From the NCBI RefSeq assembly GCF_000427965.1, contig NZ_ATZA01000006.1, positions 10,360 through 74,359 on the forward strand: a stretch of DNA of 64,000 bases. The letters run 5' to 3'. This document shows positions 49,685 through 58,606 of this stretch, piece after piece. This DNA is from Olivibacter sitiensis DSM 17696. GTDB lineage: Bacteria > Bacteroidota > Bacteroidia > Sphingobacteriales > Sphingobacteriaceae. The translations under genes were made by a program, and so were the position numbers. Numbering within the stretch: position 1 is the stretch's first letter; every line of letters starts with the position of its first letter. The notes under the pieces are model-generated. The model was not told the DNA's origin. It was given only the letters and a program-made list of their open reading frames with translations, and searched no databases.

Positions 49685-49710
49685 CGACAATTTGAATTTA
49701 CCGACCCGTG

Positions 49711-50568
49711 ATGAAATACTATATAATACCCTTGTTTGTGTTCTTCTTGTTGTTCAATATTCCCCATTCATGGTCGCAATCTTCCGACACCTTGCAAACT
49801 GATAGCAACAAGGTCTATCCACAGGGTGGTTTGGTTGATGCGGCTCGGTTCGTAGACGGCGTGGCGCATACCGTTATATCTCCTGTGCATTGGAAGGGTA
49901 AAGATTGGGTGAACGTAGGCGGCGTGGTGGCCGGCACGGCATTGTCTACCCTGTTGGATAAACCTGTTCGCTCCCTGATGCGGGATCAGGAGGGCAGGGT
50001 ATGGAACGGTATAGAGCGTGTTGGATTCCATTATGGCAAGCCGTATGCTGCATTTATCATGACGGGTGGCTTCTACCTCACTGGGGTAATCTTCAAGAAC
50101 GAGTGGGCAAAGGAAACAGGGCTGATATTGGGTGCTGCCTATCTGACCAGCGGTGCCCTACAGACCTTGATGAAAACAGCCGTGGGTAGGGCAAGGCCCG
50201 GTACGGAAGTAGGACCTTGGGCGTTTGATCCTTTTTCCGAGTCTCCAGCTTACCACTCTTTCCCTTCCGGGCACATACAGATAGCCATGGTGAGTGCCTT
50301 GGTGCTTGGCCATCGTGCCCACAATCCTTGGCTGAAAGGCTTATTGTATGCAACAGGAGCCACCACCTTTGTAGGCAGATTGCATACGGATGCGCACTGG
50401 ATGTCTGATATGGTTTTTGGTACGGCTATTTCCTATTTTTGTACGAGAGCTGTTATCAATAGGATGGATTCAAACCATCAAGATCACATCTTTGGTAAAA
50501 AGAAAAACCCGATTACCTGGCAGTTGAGCCCAGCCTTGCAAGGAATTGCCTTGAGGGGAACATTTTAA
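49711..50568 (+). CDS. PAP2-family membrane/lipid phosphatase
   Basis: Phosphatase of the type 2 phosphatidic acid family, acting at the periplasmic face on lipid phosphates or undecaprenyl pyrophosphate. Signal MKYYIIPLFVFFLLFNIPHSWSQ. Three-part active site: KTAVGRARP, YHSFPSGH, and GRLHTDAHWMSDMVFG (C-terminal His-x3-Asp). 285 residues from ATG 49711; a GTG one codon earlier is less likely. Converges on the GAF gene with 9 bases between stops. Confidence 0.93.
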   Translation: MKYYIIPLFVFFLLFNIPHSWSQSSDTLQTDSNKVYPQGGLVDAARFVDGVAHTVISPVHWKGKDWVNVGGVVAGTALSTLLDKPVRSLMRDQEGRVWNGIERVGFHYGKPYAAFIMTGGFYLTGVIFKNEWAKETGLILGAAYLTSGALQTLMKTAVGRARPGTEVGPWAFDPFSESPAYHSFPSGHIQIAMVSALVLGHRAHNPWLKGLLYATGATTFVGRLHTDAHWMSDMVFGTAISYFCTRAVINRMDSNHQDHIFGKKKNPITWQLSPALQGIALRGTF

Positions 50569-50577
50569 CGGACGTGT

Positions 50578-52908
50578 CTACAACTCCACGCCAACCCTTA
50601 AGGCCTTGAGTCCGCTTATTCCTTGTAACTCTTCGAGTTCTACTTTTTCGAGATCATCTTTCAGTATCTTTTTCCCTTGAAGATAGGATATATATGATCC
50701 GTATTCGTTCATGTCCTCTTCGTTTAGGAATACGATGGCGATTTTATCAGGTTGCGTCAGTCTTTCTTCCGAATCTTTCAGTCGGATTTTGTCAATCCGC
50801 TTTTTCACAATTTGATACCGTATGTTGTACGCCCCCTCTACATCAAAGCGCCTTTCGTCCATACGGAAACTGATATCTATGGCTGACGAGTTGACAAAGA
50901 TCAGTTGGGTGGTTTCCAATGCACGAGGCATATTCGGGACGATCTTGCTAGTCAGTTTGGTTATGGCAGCCATAGCGCTCAATTGCCATAGCCTGATGTT
51001 TTTTAGGTAGAGGTGATCGAAATGCTTATTGGGGCATATGGACTGGCCTATGTAAATATCGTATTCAACACCATCTGTCCTGAACTTTTCAAAATAGCAA
51101 GGATAGGATTGCTGCACCTCGTTGTTGAAGAGATCCAGATAGCCATTGATGGCGGCATTGACCATTTCTATGGATGACTCCAATGCCCGCCTTTGTGCAA
51201 AGCAAGCCCCCGTTTCAGGGTGTGTCTCTTTTTCGTAATGGGCTATGATTTCTCCTGCCTTTGGAATGATGGTTTTGAATACATCCAGACTTCGCTGGGT
51301 CTCCACCTCGATGAAGTGCTTCAGCCTATGCCTGATGTTGTCTATCGGCTCTGTGGCCAATTGTTGCAACCAAATCTCACAGTTGTATGTTATCTCATCA
51401 ATGATGGCAATATTTAACAAGTCGTTTAGCTTGTGAAGCGTCTCTATGAGCAGTTCCAATTGAAGCCTGAGGTCGTTAATATAGGCGGCATTGCGTTCTA
51501 TGGTAGAGTTGCGGATATCAATGGCGCCATATAAAGGGTAGACATCCTTGAAAAGGATAGGGCGAATGGTGGGTTTGGCTCCTTCTATTCTAGATTGTTT
51601 GAGGTAGTTCCATGCTTCCTCCATGAATTTCCATTCTACTGCGGGTTTTAGGGACGTGAATTTTTCCTTGATGATGCTTTCTATCTGATTGTTGAAAAGC
51701 TGTGTCTTGTCATATAGGAATTGCGCCAATAGCGATAAAACAGGTCTGAATCGAGCAAGTTGGGAACGGTCTATATAGTCGTCCATACTGTATATTTCCA
51801 GCAATCCCACTACTTGCTTGTAATGGTAGAGAGGGACACAAACGTATGATTTGATATCCAAGTTGGGCAAGTTGACCTTTAGTAAAGGCATTGGCTCGGT
51901 ATTTAAGCCCTCAACTTCATGTAAGATATTGACAGGCGTCTGTAGATACCTGTTGATTAATTCATGCCCCTGTTGTGCTCCCAAGCCGAGAGGAAGCTTG
52001 TCGAAGATGACGCTGCCTGCTACAAGTTCTTGGTCGTAAATGGGACTTCCATTGATTTTTAACAATGGCAAAAGCTTGATGTGTAGTTCTTTTCGCCCAC
52101 TGAGGATGTGCAGAGCGTTTTCCATCTCATGGTAGTCTCGCGTATCCGTAGACGAATGGCTGTCCAGGATGAGATCCTTGATGGTCTCCACGGTATGCTC
52201 AACACCTACGTCGACCAGACTGATGATGGAAAAGCCCTCAAACCTGAACTTTTCTATGGGTAGCAATTCTTGCAGCTGCCGCCAATCCACTTCTTGAAGA
52301 TTGTTCTGCCTGATTTGTTTGAAATTCAAGGGTGGCAAGTCTCCATTTGGGGAAACTTCGACAAATGTGTTATCTATCTTTACTTCAAAAAATAAGGGCA
52401 ATGATGTGCAGTCGTCGGGACACGAATAGATAAAGTTCTCAAATTCGATGGCTGGAATCCCATAGAGCCGTTCCAATATCAGGGAGTACATTTGAGGCAA
52501 TACCTTGGCTTCTTTCTTTTTGAGATAGTCTGTTCCCTCCTGATTGGTCAGTTCGGTATTGATGCGAGCGTAAAAGGTTTCCGTGCCAAAGAATATATTG
52601 GGATAAATAGGGAATGCCAAAGCCCAAAAAGTTTTGCTTTCGTCTTGCAGTGGAGAAATAAAAAGATTGGAAGCATAGGAAAACTCTTCCTTGAACTTGT
52701 CAACATTATCTATGCTCAATGGCCCAAATCGCTCTTCGGCCTTTCGGAATCTATCGAGTATAAAATCGAATATTTTTTGTTTGCTTGCTGAGCTGCTTGA
52801 ACGCAACTCCTCCAGCCTTTTCAAAAAGGGGCGAATGGAAAGGCGTATTTCAGGCCCGTTTTCCAAACCATTCTCCTGAGGGAATAGCTGTAACAGTTTC
52901 GTCTCCAT
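50578..52908 (-). CDS. GAF-domain protein of unknown function, last gene of a four-gene operon
   Basis: 776-residue cytoplasmic-looking protein without signal peptide or membrane segment. A GAF-like segment lies near residues 320-400 (NRYLQTPVNILHEVEGLN, YVCVPLYHYKQVVGLLEIYSMDDYIDRSQLARFRPVLSLLAQFLYD), a fold that binds small molecules or cyclic nucleotides. A second, C-terminal half (KQSRIEGAKPTIRPILFKDVYPLYGAIDIRNSTIERNAAYINDL and later a helical stretch) contains the phrase LYGAIDIRNST, reminiscent of the class III nucleotidyl cyclase opening (x-D-I-x-x-S/F-T), but no full cyclase core was recognised. No histidine-kinase motifs. It follows the barrel fusion gene by 11 bases. Function unknown. 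Confidence 0.7.
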   Translation of the reverse strand: METKLLQLFPQENGLENGPEIRLSIRPFLKRLEELRSSSSASKQKIFDFILDRFRKAEERFGPLSIDNVDKFKEEFSYASNLFISPLQDESKTFWALAFPIYPNIFFGTETFYARINTELTNQEGTDYLKKKEAKVLPQMYSLILERLYGIPAIEFENFIYSCPDDCTSLPLFFEVKIDNTFVEVSPNGDLPPLNFKQIRQNNLQEVDWRQLQELLPIEKFRFEGFSIISLVDVGVEHTVETIKDLILDSHSSTDTRDYHEMENALHILSGRKELHIKLLPLLKINGSPIYDQELVAGSVIFDKLPLGLGAQQGHELINRYLQTPVNILHEVEGLNTEPMPLLKVNLPNLDIKSYVCVPLYHYKQVVGLLEIYSMDDYIDRSQLARFRPVLSLLAQFLYDKTQLFNNQIESIIKEKFTSLKPAVEWKFMEEAWNYLKQSRIEGAKPTIRPILFKDVYPLYGAIDIRNSTIERNAAYINDLRLQLELLIETLHKLNDLLNIAIIDEITYNCEIWLQQLATEPIDNIRHRLKHFIEVETQRSLDVFKTIIPKAGEIIAHYEKETHPETGACFAQRRALESSIEMVNAAINGYLDLFNNEVQQSYPCYFEKFRTDGVEYDIYIGQSICPNKHFDHLYLKNIRLWQLSAMAAITKLTSKIVPNMPRALETTQLIFVNSSAIDISFRMDERRFDVEGAYNIRYQIVKKRIDKIRLKDSEERLTQPDKIAIVFLNEEDMNEYGSYISYLQGKKILKDDLEKVELEELQGISGLKALRVGVEL

Positions 52909-52919
52909 AGTTCAAATTC

Positions 52920-55900
52920 TTAGAAGCGGAATCCCATGGTTAGGTAGGGATACCACCCTTCTTGCGAACGGCCCGCCACCACTTGTATCACGGCAATCTT
53001 TGCAGGAGCATAATACAGGCCGCCACCTAAGGCATGCTTCATTTTTTCGTCATCGCGATCGCTGCTCCACACCTTGCCCACGTCGTAAAAGGCCGTGATG
53101 CCCAGTTGTCCCGGCAGTAAATAACTGCCTATATCTGCCAATCTCATCCTTGCCTCCGCATTGTTGTAAAACAATTGCTCTCCAGCAAATCGAAATTGCC
53201 TATAGCCCCAGAGGTTGCCATGGCCACCTAGGAAAAGGGATTGATAGAAGGTTTCCTTGCCAAGGATAGCCGCCCCGCCTATACGATTGGCAAAAGTAAT
53301 AGAATTTCTTAGAATGGGCACAAAGAGTGCGAGGTCGGCGCTAATCTTGACATAAGATTTAGAATACGCGTTCAATCCGGTATAGGCACTTACGTTGGTG
53401 TGTATATATCCCCCTGAGGTGGGGATGAGTGTGTTGTCCCTTTTGTCTTTCACGAAATCGGCCACAAGGCCGGCAAAGGCCTTGTTCTTGCTCACCGTAA
53501 GGCTATCGTACGTATAGAGTGCCTGCGGCTGCGTGATCAGCCTACCGGCGTTTTGGCTGGGTGAAAAATGATAATATTGTAGGGTAGGGCCCAGTGTCAA
53601 GCTGGTTTTATCCCGCATCTCCCAAAGGAAGGATGGCGTCAAATCGTATAGATGGAAACGGGCACGGTAATAGCTCATGGGAAAATCCTTGTTGTATTCG
53701 GAAGCGCTTCCCAAACCGAAAAAGTTCTGCGTGTTGGGGGCTAGTGCGCTAGCTTTAAGCAAGAAGTCCGCTCGCCCGATGGCGTCTTTCCAATGGCCAA
53801 GGTAATTGATCCGGAAAGCACCATTTCTGAGGGAACCTGCCACGGTGAGCTGTTGCGTGTGTGTAAAAGGTATCTTCCTAAACCCTTTTTGCTGGCTGTA
53901 TCTAAATCCACCACCTATGAGGAGGCCATCGTCTGCATTGTAGCCCAATGTGGCTAATGGATACCATACATTGTAGAGATTAGTTTCTACATAGCGTGTG
54001 TTCAAGGTGTCAGAAGAACTTCGGATTTTCAGTTTTTCTGTTCGCCCAATGTAGCTGGTTGTGTTCGGCTTGTCGTAAACCCTGATTGGTTTGTTTGCGT
54101 TTTCCACTTGAAACTGCTTATTTCCTGTGCCACCGACAATTCTGATCTTGATGGGAGAATGCTTGATATCTACGAAAACACTATCGTCACCGTTGGACAG
54201 ATAGATGCGTATTTCCTTGGTCAAGGTGGGTGAATAAGTAGCGTCCATCAACTTTCTCTTTACTTCATCGGCCTTGTTTATTTTTCGGACTACTAACTTT
54301 ACTGAACCACTGTCGCCATCCGTGATATGAACTAGTTCATGTTTGTTGCTCAAGCGGATATCGACTATTTCGTGGATGAATCGATAGTAGTTGTCCATGG
54401 CCTGTGGGATATTGTCCCGTCTTTCCTTTAGTTTTTGGAACAGTTCCTCGTACCTCAATTCGTAGATGGCTTTTGGCAGTCTCATCACGCTTTCGTGGAG
54501 CACGCTGTCTGTCATATCGGATACAAATTCCCGAGCTAAGTCCATCCACTCTTGGTGCGAAAATTGACTTTTGTAGTGTGCGTTTAGGAAATCGGATTTG
54601 ATGAGCGAGTATTTGGGACTTTTGATTTGGGAGTCAAATGCTTGCATGGTAGGCAATATCCAAGGCTGGGATACTATTTTTGGGAAAAAGCCGTCAGTCA
54701 TGCGGAAGGCTTGGTCTCGGTCTCTTGGTACACCTAGATAATCTTTGTCGCCTTTCTCATTGGTGTCTTTCCACCTCCATTGATCCTCGTGCCTATCCCA
54801 GTCGCCAATTAATAGGTCGAGCATCCTTGCGCGGAGGAAATTCTTCGCTTTATAGACGTCGTCGTTATCATTGTGAAGCTTCTTGAGCATTTTTACGGTA
54901 TTGTCCGACTTGCCCAGAGGCTCTCGTTCTTCCACCAGGCAGAGCATATTGGAAAAAACAGCATTATAGCCGCCAAGGGCAGGATCTGGCGCCACTATAC
55001 CAATGATGGGGTTGGTATGCGGCACTTCTACGGCATCGGCCAAAGGCGGCACCATGAGTGCTGCGTAGGGATGCTGGGCACTGTTGGCATCATCTAAAAA
55101 GTTTTGGGCAAAGGTGTGCAGGAGCTCATCTGGGAGCAACGCGTCTGTACTTTTGTTGACGCTCCGCATCACCCATTGCTTGCCCGTTTTGTCTTCCAAT
55201 CGCAAGGATTTGGTTTGCATGCCCCCTCCTCTTTTAATGGGGCTGAGACCACCGGCAAATTGCGATGCCCGAATGATGGGGACCGTGGTAGCTTGTGCCC
55301 ATTCTTTCCGATAGTTTTCTCCGAACAATTTCCGGTGCGTTTTGCCAACTTTATCGTACGCTTCATTGGCGACGGTTAGTACGCTATCCACATCGGCATA
55401 AAGATTTTGGATGGTATCTTGAATGGTGTCTGGCGTATAAGGATTGTGATAGGCATAGCTTTTTACGAATTCGTTTTCTTTGGAGAGAAAGGAGTAGAAC
55501 GTGATCCGTGTGCTTTGGTCCTCTAGGTAGTCATAAACGACGAAACCTGGCCGCCCCGAACTATAGACGGCGCGCTTTCCGCGCAGCAAATTGGCAGATT
55601 TGTTTGCTCCTGTGATGCTTTGGATATTGCCGTCTTCTGTTTGTATGAGTTGTTGTCCCTTTTCGTGACTGGAGAAAAGGTAGATGTTGTGCTGTTGATC
55701 CATGATGTCTTCCATGGCATCAATCCATCTGCTATATTGGGGTTGGCGCAAATCTTGTTCGCTGGAAAATAGGGTGGATCGACCAAGGGGATATAAAGAG
55801 CCAATAATTGGGAGCGGAATATAGAGGTTTTTATTGAGGTTGGTCAGTGGAAAAAGATGATCTTTCCATGTGTAATAGCCGCCACGGTGCCCATACGAGG

Positions 55901-56522
55901 CAACGGGATGGTGAGTGACCAACAAGATGGTCTTCTTTCTGTTGAGATAGAGCAGTTCCTCGATTTTGTCCAAGACGTCCTGCTTGGTGTCGCAGTCGCA
56001 ATCGTCGTCGTCATTGTTCATATCCGTCGGTTGGATAAGCCAATTGCTATCGAACGACAGGGCCACCAAGTTGCTATCAAGCTGGAAAAGTTGTGGGTCT
56101 GGACAGCCATTCTTTGGAATCAAGTGTACCCATGTGCTATCTGCATTGGCTTTTAGATAATCTTCCAGCGTTTGCAATTCGTGCCAACTGGGTTGGTTTC
56201 CCCAATCTCTCTCGCCGCTTAGCATGAAGACGGATGTCTCTTTGTTCTCAAATGGTTTGAAAAGCCGACTTAATGCCTGATATCCTTGTTTTTTTTCTGT
56301 TACCTTTTGGCTGCCTAAATAAAAAACAGTGCTGCTTTTGGCTATGAGCATATCTTCGACTTTCGATATGATCTTCTCTTGCAATGCCGTATCACCTCCC
56401 GTTGGCCCGATGAAAATTGCTCGGTGCTTGATAGCCGTTTGGGCCAATAAGATGGCTGGGCAGCTAAAAATGCCAATGAACAAAAGTGTTACGTAAAACC
56501 ATATGGGACGACATTGCTTCAT
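52920..56522 (-). CDS. Metallophosphatase-like / atypical-kinase-like / BamA-type barrel fusion protein
   Basis: 1200 residues, start at ATG 56522 (signal MKQCRPIWFYVTLLFIGIFS...LLAQ); the neighbour's stop lies one base upstream. Three parts: (1) residues about 33-400, a calcineurin-like phosphatase fold with weakened metal motifs (GERDW at 103-107 where GNHDW is usual, VTHHP at 203-206, SHEK at 285-288 where GHxH is usual) and an Asp-rich insert NNDDDDCDCD; (2) about 410-800, with KQWVMRSVNKS, LGGYNAVF, and a segment LIGDWDRHEDQWRW (Asp576) followed by VPRDRDQAF (Asp601, Asp603), like the catalytic and metal loops of FAM20/HipA-type kinases; (3) about 840-1200, a surface-antigen/BamA barrel with GGHGNLWGYRQFRFAGEQLFYNNAEARM and terminal F. 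Family relatives in Bacteroidota are usually annotated only by the barrel or phosphatase. Confidence 0.8.
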   Translation of the reverse strand: MKQCRPIWFYVTLLFIGIFSCPAILLAQTAIKHRAIFIGPTGGDTALQEKIISKVEDMLIAKSSTVFYLGSQKVTEKKQGYQALSRLFKPFENKETSVFMLSGERDWGNQPSWHELQTLEDYLKANADSTWVHLIPKNGCPDPQLFQLDSNLVALSFDSNWLIQPTDMNNDDDDCDCDTKQDVLDKIEELLYLNRKKTILLVTHHPVASYGHRGGYYTWKDHLFPLTNLNKNLYIPLPIIGSLYPLGRSTLFSSEQDLRQPQYSRWIDAMEDIMDQQHNIYLFSSHEKGQQLIQTEDGNIQSITGANKSANLLRGKRAVYSSGRPGFVVYDYLEDQSTRITFYSFLSKENEFVKSYAYHNPYTPDTIQDTIQNLYADVDSVLTVANEAYDKVGKTHRKLFGENYRKEWAQATTVPIIRASQFAGGLSPIKRGGGMQTKSLRLEDKTGKQWVMRSVNKSTDALLPDELLHTFAQNFLDDANSAQHPYAALMVPPLADAVEVPHTNPIIGIVAPDPALGGYNAVFSNMLCLVEEREPLGKSDNTVKMLKKLHNDNDDVYKAKNFLRARMLDLLIGDWDRHEDQWRWKDTNEKGDKDYLGVPRDRDQAFRMTDGFFPKIVSQPWILPTMQAFDSQIKSPKYSLIKSDFLNAHYKSQFSHQEWMDLAREFVSDMTDSVLHESVMRLPKAIYELRYEELFQKLKERRDNIPQAMDNYYRFIHEIVDIRLSNKHELVHITDGDSGSVKLVVRKINKADEVKRKLMDATYSPTLTKEIRIYLSNGDDSVFVDIKHSPIKIRIVGGTGNKQFQVENANKPIRVYDKPNTTSYIGRTEKLKIRSSSDTLNTRYVETNLYNVWYPLATLGYNADDGLLIGGGFRYSQQKGFRKIPFTHTQQLTVAGSLRNGAFRINYLGHWKDAIGRADFLLKASALAPNTQNFFGLGSASEYNKDFPMSYYRARFHLYDLTPSFLWEMRDKTSLTLGPTLQYYHFSPSQNAGRLITQPQALYTYDSLTVSKNKAFAGLVADFVKDKRDNTLIPTSGGYIHTNVSAYTGLNAYSKSYVKISADLALFVPILRNSITFANRIGGAAILGKETFYQSLFLGGHGNLWGYRQFRFAGEQLFYNNAEARMRLADIGSYLLPGQLGITAFYDVGKVWSSDRDDEKMKHALGGGLYYAPAKIAVIQVVAGRSQEGWYPYLTMGFRF

Positions 56523-56523
56523 G

Positions 56524-57417
56524 CTACCGTAAGTCAAATTTTAAAATGGTACCCGTCTTGTTCTTTCCATAAGCTTCATTGCTGATGTAGAGGTTGCCTT
56601 TACTGTCGAAGGCAATGCCTTCTGGTTGCGGGAAGAGATTGGAATCTAATTTGTAGAGGGCCTTTATATTCCAGTTTTTGTCGGTAACTACCAGCAGTTT
56701 GTCTATGGATGAAAGGATGTACCATTCATTGGTATGGCTGTTTTTTGCCAAGGCTGAGGGTCTTAGCACTTTGCCTTTCAAGGCATTTTTTAGCATAGGG
56801 TGATCATTGTCGACAGCAAAACTGCCTGAGGATACGAGCTGATTGTCGTCTGTCATCTGAAAGATATGCCCCGATGTCTGTTTTGCCTTCCTATCGGCGC
56901 TGCAGGTTTTGCAAAGGGTGTATATCAGATGAGTTGCTGGATCGGTTGCGATACTTTCATACTCACCTTTGGGCAATAGGTTCTTCCATGTCTTTACCTC
57001 GGTGATTTCCTGGGAATTCTTTGATGCAAAGGGAAAAGAGAATAGGGTGCCGTCGCTGCGAAGCACTATAAAATTGTCCTTGCAAATAGTAAGGTCTTCG
57101 TAATCGCCCTTTTTTCCGAATTTGGCTTCCCGAGTTCCCTTGCTTATCGGGTCAATAGAAAAGAGAATGCCGTCTTCATCCTGTTGGGCATATAAAGTGT
57201 CGTCTTTTTGAGGGTAGAAGCATATGCCCGATACCTCCCTTAGCTTTTTGTGAAGCTGTATCGAAGTAGTTGGCCGGTTTAGATCAAATACCTCCGGGCT
57301 GTCGTATGGCTCGTGTTTCTTTTGTGCGCAAGCCTCCATGCCTGTTAAAAGGCATACAGCTAAGCCGTATCTACTTATGAATATGCCTGTTTCTCTAAAA
57401 AAGGAGCGTAAGGTCAT
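56524..57417 (-). CDS. SdiA-regulated-type beta-propeller lipoprotein
   Basis: 297-residue exported protein; signal ends in a lipobox MEAC, so probably a lipoprotein. Repeating blades (REVSGICFYPQKDDTLYAQQDEDG, GEYESIATDPATHLIYTLCKTCS, LFPQPEGIAFDSKGNLYISNEAYGKNKTGTILKF) match the SdiA-regulated/YjiK-like propeller family. Cysteines CKTCS are unusual for it. It ends one base before the start of the barrel fusion gene and starts 13 bases after the HD/Pycsar-type gene, so these are translated together. Ligand unknown. Confidence 0.82.
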   Translation of the reverse strand: MTLRSFFRETGIFISRYGLAVCLLTGMEACAQKKHEPYDSPEVFDLNRPTTSIQLHKKLREVSGICFYPQKDDTLYAQQDEDGILFSIDPISKGTREAKFGKKGDYEDLTICKDNFIVLRSDGTLFSFPFASKNSQEITEVKTWKNLLPKGEYESIATDPATHLIYTLCKTCSADRKAKQTSGHIFQMTDDNQLVSSGSFAVDNDHPMLKNALKGKVLRPSALAKNSHTNEWYILSSIDKLLVVTDKNWNIKALYKLDSNLFPQPEGIAFDSKGNLYISNEAYGKNKTGTILKFDLR

Positions 57418-57430
57418 CGTCTGTTAAGAG

Positions 57431-58606
57431 TTAATCGTTCATGATAATGGCTACAACATAAGCTAAAATCGCCGCGATGAGGCCAAACATGAATATGCTA
57501 TAGGCCAGACGCAGCAAGCGGTATTTTCTACCCAATACTACTCCCTGGGAGTAAACGTCCTTGGTAAGTGTGCCGTATAGGAATTCGCGGTCTTCCATCA
57601 CTTGTTGCATACCTGCTGTGTACTTGTCAAAAGGCATTTTGTAGAAATTGCCAAAAAAAAGCAGGTTGACACTTTTGTTTTTCACTTCTTCTGCGGTAAA
57701 TTCCCCAGATGGGATTTTGGGCCTAGTGGCCAATATGGCAATGACTATAGTAGTAAGGCAAATGCCCAAAAGCAAAAAGGTAGGGATGGTCAGGTTGTCG
57801 CTGTCGTCCAAATGACGGAGCAACAAGGAGATAACGGCAGAAAGGATGATGGAATTGACCGTGATGAGTATATTGGCCTTGTTGTCTGCCATATCACTCA
57901 AGCGCTGATTGTTTGTCGACGTGGTCCTGAACATGGTCTCTATGCCCCTGTCTGGTCTTTTCAGATCTTCGTTTTTCTTTTTCTTCTCCTCGTCTAGGGA
58001 CTCTATAAGGGCTTTTTTCTTTAGGTTGGCTAGGTTTTGCGCTTTCTTTTCATTCAACAAATGTTGGCAATAGTCTGTATGGTAGTGATGTGTTTCCAAC
58101 AAAGCAATAGTATGCTTTCTCCATTGGGATTTGTCCAGTGCGCCATCGAGGTTGAGTTCTGCCTCCTTGCGCATAAGCTTGTTCTTACTTGGGAAATCAT
58201 CACAGCCCAAGTGAAATAGGTCTGCGTCGCAGACGATCTCTTCTAAGAGATTTCTGGGGCTCTGGGGCATTTTTGTGGAGAGGATGCATCCTTTTACCGC
58301 TTCTGTTAATTCATTGTCGTCGGTATGTTGCTTTAAAAAATCTTCCGCAAGCTGCGCGCTCCTCAGTTCGTGGTTTTCCTTATAGCCATTGAAGTAACCA
58401 ATATCATGGAATTGTGCGGCAAGAGTTACAATGGCCAATTCCCGCTCGTTGAGTGGGTAGTGAGCGGCAATTTGTTGAACGGTTTTTACTACATCCAAGG
58501 TATGCTCTTGGTTGTGGTAAACCAAGGTCGGCGATGGGTGGTTCTGCACAAAATCCTTAACCCAGGCGGATGCCTGATCAATGAGCTGACTGTATTCTAC
58601 TATCAT
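57431..58606 (-). CDS. HD-domain protein fused to a Pycsar-type (DUF5706) membrane effector
   Basis: 391 residues. N-terminal HD phosphohydrolase domain (1-185): His31 and His35 in YHNQEHT, His67-Asp68 in AAQFHDIGYF, and Asp128 in VCDAD, the H...HD...D metal set, so nucleotide hydrolysis is plausible. A charged coiled-coil-like linker (190-220, ESLDEEKKKKNEDLKRPDR) joins it to the DUF5706 region (MFRTTSTNNQRLSDMADNKANIL), the domain now called PycTM in Pycsar antiphage systems, with membrane segments at about 246-264, 273-294 and 366-389. No pyrimidine cyclase gene is in the window. First gene of the four-gene operon. Confidence 0.85.
   Translation of the reverse strand: MIVEYSQLIDQASAWVKDFVQNHPSPTLVYHNQEHTLDVVKTVQQIAAHYPLNERELAIVTLAAQFHDIGYFNGYKENHELRSAQLAEDFLKQHTDDNELTEAVKGCILSTKMPQSPRNLLEEIVCDADLFHLGCDDFPSKNKLMRKEAELNLDGALDKSQWRKHTIALLETHHYHTDYCQHLLNEKKAQNLANLKKKALIESLDEEKKKKNEDLKRPDRGIETMFRTTSTNNQRLSDMADNKANILITVNSIILSAVISLLLRHLDDSDNLTIPTFLLLGICLTTIVIAILATRPKIPSGEFTAEEVKNKSVNLLFFGNFYKMPFDKYTAGMQQVMEDREFLYGTLTKDVYSQGVVLGRKYRLLRLAYSIFMFGLIAAILAYVVAIIMND

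Follow-up and report, generated by a model that had tools for sequence, protein, structure and literature searches.

Can a protein that is anchored in the bacterial outer membrane by a barrel carry a kinase? This question is raised by a gene of Olivibacter sitiensis DSM 17696, present as a single copy in its genome and located within a stretch of 64,000 nucleotides that is referred to here as the window. The initial annotation had described kinase-like motifs of the FAM20/HipA type between a degenerate calcineurin-like phosphatase and a BamA-type barrel, and had remarked that a kinase or related transferase displayed outside the inner membrane would be notable. From the evidence assembled below, we regard it as solid that this exported protein with a barrel anchor contains a domain of the kinase fold whose catalytic core is conserved. 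We further consider it likely that the protein is a periplasmic, outer membrane-anchored atypical kinase or phosphotransferase that was once paired with a phosphatase, its activity, phosphate donor, and substrate all being unproven.

The gene begins with the ATG at 56520-56522, in agreement with the gene limits of the initial annotation, and all residue numbers are counted from this codon; an in-frame TTG located 15 bases upstream would extend the open reading frame to 52920-56537 on the minus strand. From the N- to the C-terminus, the protein comprises a signal peptide, a metallophosphoesterase (MPE) domain, a central domain, a beta-rich linker, and a barrel (Table 1). The linker also accompanies the kinase domain in some homologs that have no barrel. 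The nearest sequenced relatives are encoded by Olivibacter species, with 52-55% identity.

Table 1. Positions of the gene, its domains and motifs, and its operon partners within the window
Feature	Position	Strand	Basis or remark
Whole gene	52920..56522	-	1200 aa from ATG start
Predicted signal peptide MKQCRPIWFYVTLLFIGIFSCPAILLAQ	56439..56522	-	judged from sequence
Decayed calcineurin-like phosphoesterase (MPE), residues 33-345	55488..56426	-	
Kinase-fold (central) domain, residues 378-717 (~340 residues)	54372..55391	-	homolog alignment, AF2 model, fold matches, hhalign
Glycine-rich loop GGGMQTKSLRL, residues 432-442	55197..55229	-	first two Gly invariant, 127 sequences
K457, candidate beta-3 ATP-contacting Lys	55152..55154	-	99% conserved
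Catalytic-loop motif DWDRHEDQW, residues 574-582	54777..54803	-	D576 pairs with CotH D228
Metal-binding motif PRDRDQAF, residues 599-606	54705..54728	-	D601 pairs with CotH D251
Beta-rich linker domain with GGTGNK turn, residues 719-835	54018..54368	-	
Omp85-type barrel, 16 strands, residues 852-1200, ending GFRF	52923..53969	-	
SdiA-regulated/NHL-type beta-propeller, conserved operon partner	56524..57417	-	
HD domain fused to PycTM membrane domain, conserved operon partner	57431..58606	-	
776-aa protein with weak GAF match, conserved operon partner	50578..52908	-	

The barrel matches the PF01103 profile (E 5.5e-13), ends in an aromatic residue, and has BamA and TamA as its top fold matches; a PF01103 barrel with 16 strands is also what we required of an Omp85 protein. 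The earlier BamA-type label fits the barrel itself, but Pfam scans found none of the POTRA domains of BamA, and Omp85 members without POTRA domains have been described (PMC4104836). Among homologs consisting of a stand-alone kinase domain, the N-termini carry a signal peptide, a lipobox-like Cys, or a membrane helix, as judged by eye. An even strand number places both ends of a barrel on the same side of the membrane, which is the periplasm in Omp85 proteins. Together, the 16-strand barrel, the apparent export signals of the stand-alone homologs, and the precedent of PlpD argue for a kinase domain that is periplasmic rather than exposed at the surface, which we regard as the best inference available, resting in part upon analogy. 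The proposed location outside the inner membrane is thus upheld as a prediction for the periplasm and not for the cell surface, while the activity of the domain has yet to be demonstrated.

The MPE domain of the window protein is visibly ruined, much as had been suspected. Its motifs read SGERDW and SSHEK, with IGPTGG in place of IGDAG and YLGSQK in place of YLGDNIYP, which corresponds to the changes D40P, N104E, H105R, and H288K plus a deletion at the GDN motif. Its metal-binding motifs are not intact, and the PF00149 profile goes undetected in this copy; the same profile is detected in the homolog L058 as well as in a free-standing MPE gene (L160). In general, the motifs are intact, as the metal residues are kept in 95-100% of 91-94 homologs. 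They are lost in three full-length sequences (window, L108, and L022), all of which retain every kinase residue that was checked. Across 84 full-length proteins, MPE identity tracks kinase identity closely, and the window MPE is the largest outlier of the 84 relative to the kinase domain (mean z -2.8), unlike the window barrel (-0.5). A FastTree phylogeny of the kinase domain requires at least ten gains or losses of an intact MPE, and decay arose at least twice. Repeated loss and decay of the MPE alongside retained kinase residues imply that the phosphatase is dispensable, the kinase-like domain being the part that persists. Other arrangements also occur: in G011 a separate MPE gene (L160) lies directly upstream of a kinase-barrel gene, L164 has the kinase, MPE, and barrel as separate pieces, and L161-L163 and L165 have the kinase domain alone. 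Such fission and fusion suggest that these parts act together.

The two central motifs noted initially are real and unaltered in the window copy. Homologs were gathered among relatives, in 148 Bacteroidota genomes, and by means of a GTDB-wide scan, in which the best 80 loci were all from Bacteroidota (the search outside the phylum was not exhaustive); matches on plasmids came only from Hymenobacter, Persicobacter, and Parabacteroides. Among 126-129 aligned homologs, E531, D569, D601, and D603 are conserved in 100%, K457 and R577 in 99%, and D574, D576, H578, and D580 each in 98%. The invariant or nearly invariant positions are G432, G433, R453, K457, D478, E531, and D569 ahead of the catalytic loop; D574, W575, D576, R577, H578, D580, Q581, and W582 in the catalytic loop; and P599, R600, D601, R602, and D603 in the metal motif. 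Conservation of this breadth rules out a chance origin of DWDRH and PRDRD, and the order of glycine loop, Lys, acidic helix residue, DxDRH, and DxD is that of atypical kinases. Key residues are altered in just a few per cent of sequences, so catalytic activity is inferred to be probable, if undemonstrated. The exceptions, namely L122 (R453S, R577Q, H578Q), L023 (D576G), and the second copy of L132 (K457T), are among the reasons to consider that the domain could instead be a pseudokinase or ligand sensor, one that binds a nucleotide, polyphosphate, or a lipid head group and regulates the barrel or the phosphatase without any phosphotransfer. Several kinase-fold families are indeed pseudokinases or move other groups, and we know of no ATP pool in the periplasm. 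However, the catalytic Asp, the metal Asp, and the Lys remain 98-100% conserved despite strong sequence divergence, and the kinase core outlasts the phosphatase, both of which render a purely sensory role unlikely. The L122 protein (L122:6007-9597) is a full-length homolog from Mucilaginibacter straminoryzae in which the MPE is nonetheless intact, and this organism has a nearby second kinase-barrel gene with intact kinase residues.

The assignment of the central domain to the kinase superfamily rests upon its predicted structure. Modeled by AF2 from a 50-sequence alignment, it reached a pLDDT of 92.7 and a pTM of 0.90, and all 13 Foldseek matches at E < 0.001 were kinase-superfamily chains, including CtkA (3.8e-6), PI4KIIa (1.7e-5), HipT (1.3e-4), the FAM20 Golgi casein kinase 4kqa (3.5e-4), YihE, and Rio2. 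Of the two outcomes named beforehand as refuting the proposal, namely the lack of a kinase-like fold and Asp residues that vary among homologs, neither was encountered. When the Foldseek list was re-examined using VIA-align, PI4KII ranked first (Z 13-14.6, the best being PI4KIIb with Z 14.6 over 257 residues), followed by CotH (Z 12.8) and CtkA (Z 12.6), with the PI3K family, HipA, and FAM20 at Z about 10-11.5 (FAM20A Z 10.2). Middling Z values can arise from common arrangements; the top rows all belong to one clan, in accord with the sequence motifs. The model has the bilobal fold of the protein kinase-like (PKL) superfamily, and the conserved beta-3 Lys, catalytic Asp, and metal Asp expected of that superfamily are present as judged from conservation, the pocket geometry not having been inspected. 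The FAM20/HipA designation survives at the level of the clan only, given that FAM20 has the same clan fold and that the nearest folds are those of PI4KII, CotH, and CtkA.

Profile searches contribute less. Neither Pfam nor NCBIfam has a significant match to the central domain of the window protein or to its stand-alone homologs, Pfam alone has none in 50 aligned homologs, the SL4P and NIF matches in these scans were attributable to chance only, and phmmer and hmmsearch against PDB sequences found no kinase. Among 50 members, there was likewise no match to PF08757 (CotH, E<=1), PF00454 (PI3/PI4 kinases), or PF07804 (HipA_C). PF00454 was also empty above its cut-off in 198 Bacteroidota genomes, for which reason no PI4K alignment was made, and the hhalign comparison to HipA did not rise above shuffles. 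Against a profile of 30 Bacteroidota CotH proteins, hhalign gave the central domain a score of 35.2 (single-comparison E 0.0024), higher than all 100 column shuffles (maximum 31.0); reversing the alignment gave 19.8, and the scores of four unrelated families were 16.6-19.7. Since the program's own probability is just 12%, this marginal similarity is supporting and not decisive. In the alignment, D576 is paired with the invariant Asp of the CotH "WD", and D601 is matched to the first Asp of "DYD", likewise invariant, thereby meeting the WD...D(Y)D pattern by which we recognized CotH-like catalytic pairs; the aligned Asp pair lies 23 residues apart in a solved CotH chain, as do D228 and D251. 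Mutants of either residue in B. subtilis CotH are inactive (PMC7821199).

A fold match alone does not demonstrate the function of the central domain and is silent on which group would be moved, so it is necessary to consider a kinase-fold transferase of another type, transferring AMP, a phospholipid group, or some other moiety, as does SelO, an AMP-transferase with a kinase fold. An extracytoplasmic site without ATP would favor this, as would the general occurrence of non-kinase transferases having the same fold, whereas the alignment of the motifs, in canonical order, with the phosphotransferring CotH makes it quite improbable. That the middle region is no kinase at all, merely a structural periplasmic domain in place of POTRA with coincidental DWDRH and PRDRD motifs, is supported by the complete absence of Pfam/NCBIfam matches and is already disfavored, to the point of being very hard to sustain, by the high-confidence model, its kinase-superfamily top matches, and the conserved catalytic pattern.

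The gene begins one base after the beta-propeller gene and ends 11 bases before the GAF gene, so it is probably co-transcribed with both. Among 46 full-length loci with sufficient upstream sequence, the same-strand run includes the GAF gene in 40, HD-PycTM in 38, the beta-propeller in 38, and the polyphosphate kinase PPK1 in 35, and the corresponding numbers among 28 barrel-kinase forms without the MPE are 11, 17, 16, and 17. Most of these loci come from Sphingobacteriaceae and Chitinophagaceae, so they do not count as independent. A strong association with PPK1 is confined to these two families; among more distant homologs, HD-PycTM frequently remains nearby and PPK1 rarely does. The window operon has no PPK1 between its HD-PycTM and beta-propeller genes (56524-57431), each of its four congeners carries a PPK1 gene no more than about 3 kb from the respective homolog, and the window genome encodes two PPK1 genes elsewhere (C14, C19; L139, L138), each ~40% identical to the operonic ones. 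A coupling between loss of the operonic PPK1 and decay of the phosphatase was considered but found no support: PPK1 is missing from the window operon and from the vicinity of L022, yet L108 has it, and it is also missing at L061, L066, and L127, where the phosphatase is intact. A gene for a PAP2-superfamily phosphatase (49708-50568) faces the end of the operon and adjoins it in the Olivibacter relatives as well. HD-PycTM (57431-58606), which contains a Pycsar effector domain, belongs to an operon conserved across Bacteroidota; a match to PycTM alone should not be taken as an anti-phage system.

Based upon these features, several inferences can be made regarding the presumed periplasmic kinase. 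The barrel would serve as an outer-membrane anchor from which the N-terminal part projects into the periplasm, presenting a PKL domain of the PI4KII/CotH/HipA/FAM20 clan that probably functions as a phosphotransferase. K457 and E531 would lie in the nucleotide pocket, D576 would be catalytic, and D601 and D603 would bind metal. In most relatives, this domain is fused to a metallophosphoesterase, so that a kinase and a phosphatase would sit side by side on the inner face of the outer membrane; the window strain has retained the kinase half, whereas the metal site of the phosphatase half has been lost. The likeliest substrate may be an envelope component, either an outer-membrane lipid or a protein: in favor of a lipid, the fold is matched best by PI4KII and the site is expected near the inner leaflet, and a protein is attractive by analogy to CotH and FAM20. 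The donor could be polyphosphate or an imported nucleotide. Operons with a polyphosphate kinase suggest, and no more than suggest, that the protein is connected with the metabolism of polyphosphate or phosphate, gene context being the only support for a polyphosphate role. It is conceivable, but at present doubtful, that Bacteroidota as a phylum possess outer membrane-anchored extracytoplasmic kinases that, with a phosphatase, reversibly phosphorylate an envelope lipid or protein from a donor other than cytoplasmic ATP, for example polyphosphate made by the operonic PPK1. Phosphorylation is viewed as cytoplasmic because ATP is. If correct, a conserved kinase-fold domain on an outer-membrane barrel, usually accompanied by a phosphatase and widespread in the sampled Bacteroidota, would imply a periplasmic phosphorylation cycle and would raise the question of its phosphate donor directly. 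As phosphorylation at an outer-membrane site is so far unknown, the domain poses an experimentally accessible question, namely how phosphate chemistry might proceed away from the cellular ATP pool.

Our literature search, which did not extend to most subscription papers or to any preprints, found no outer-membrane or Omp85 protein reported to contain a kinase domain. The central domain represents a new family, unusual in its location, of a superfamily that is already known, and ~340 residues not covered by any Pfam or NCBIfam model now receive an annotation. PI4KII is its best structural match but comprises cytosolic eukaryotic lipid kinases, the DRGNDNW loop of which appears to resemble DRHEDQW. 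HipA, CtkA, and FAM20 have the clan fold in common with it, without a family-level sequence match. The spore-coat CotH kinases (PF08757; 5jd9, 5jda) have both the fold and the aligned catalytic Asp pair, but unlike the window protein, they have no barrel. CotH is present in 39 of 99 sampled Bacteroidota genomes, and the window genome itself encodes a CotH-family protein (C2:52458-53450; PF08757, E 2.9e-47). As an architecture, the class is already known, since the "Metallo" subfamily of Omp85 proteins, a PF00149 domain plus an Omp85 barrel, was catalogued in 2014 (Heinz and Lithgow 2014, PMC4104836). The same pairing is found in homologs of the window gene, whose membership in the subfamily was not checked. 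The word "kinase" is absent from the main text of that study, which terms PF00149 a metalloprotease; the Pfam name is calcineurin-like phosphoesterase, which suggests that the label be corrected. A further parallel in design is PlpD, in which an enzyme domain likewise lies N-terminal to an Omp85 barrel; experiments have placed this domain in the periplasm, and it affects membrane lipids, but where PlpD combines a patatin lipase with a POTRA domain (PMC11116518), the window family combines a kinase with a phosphatase.
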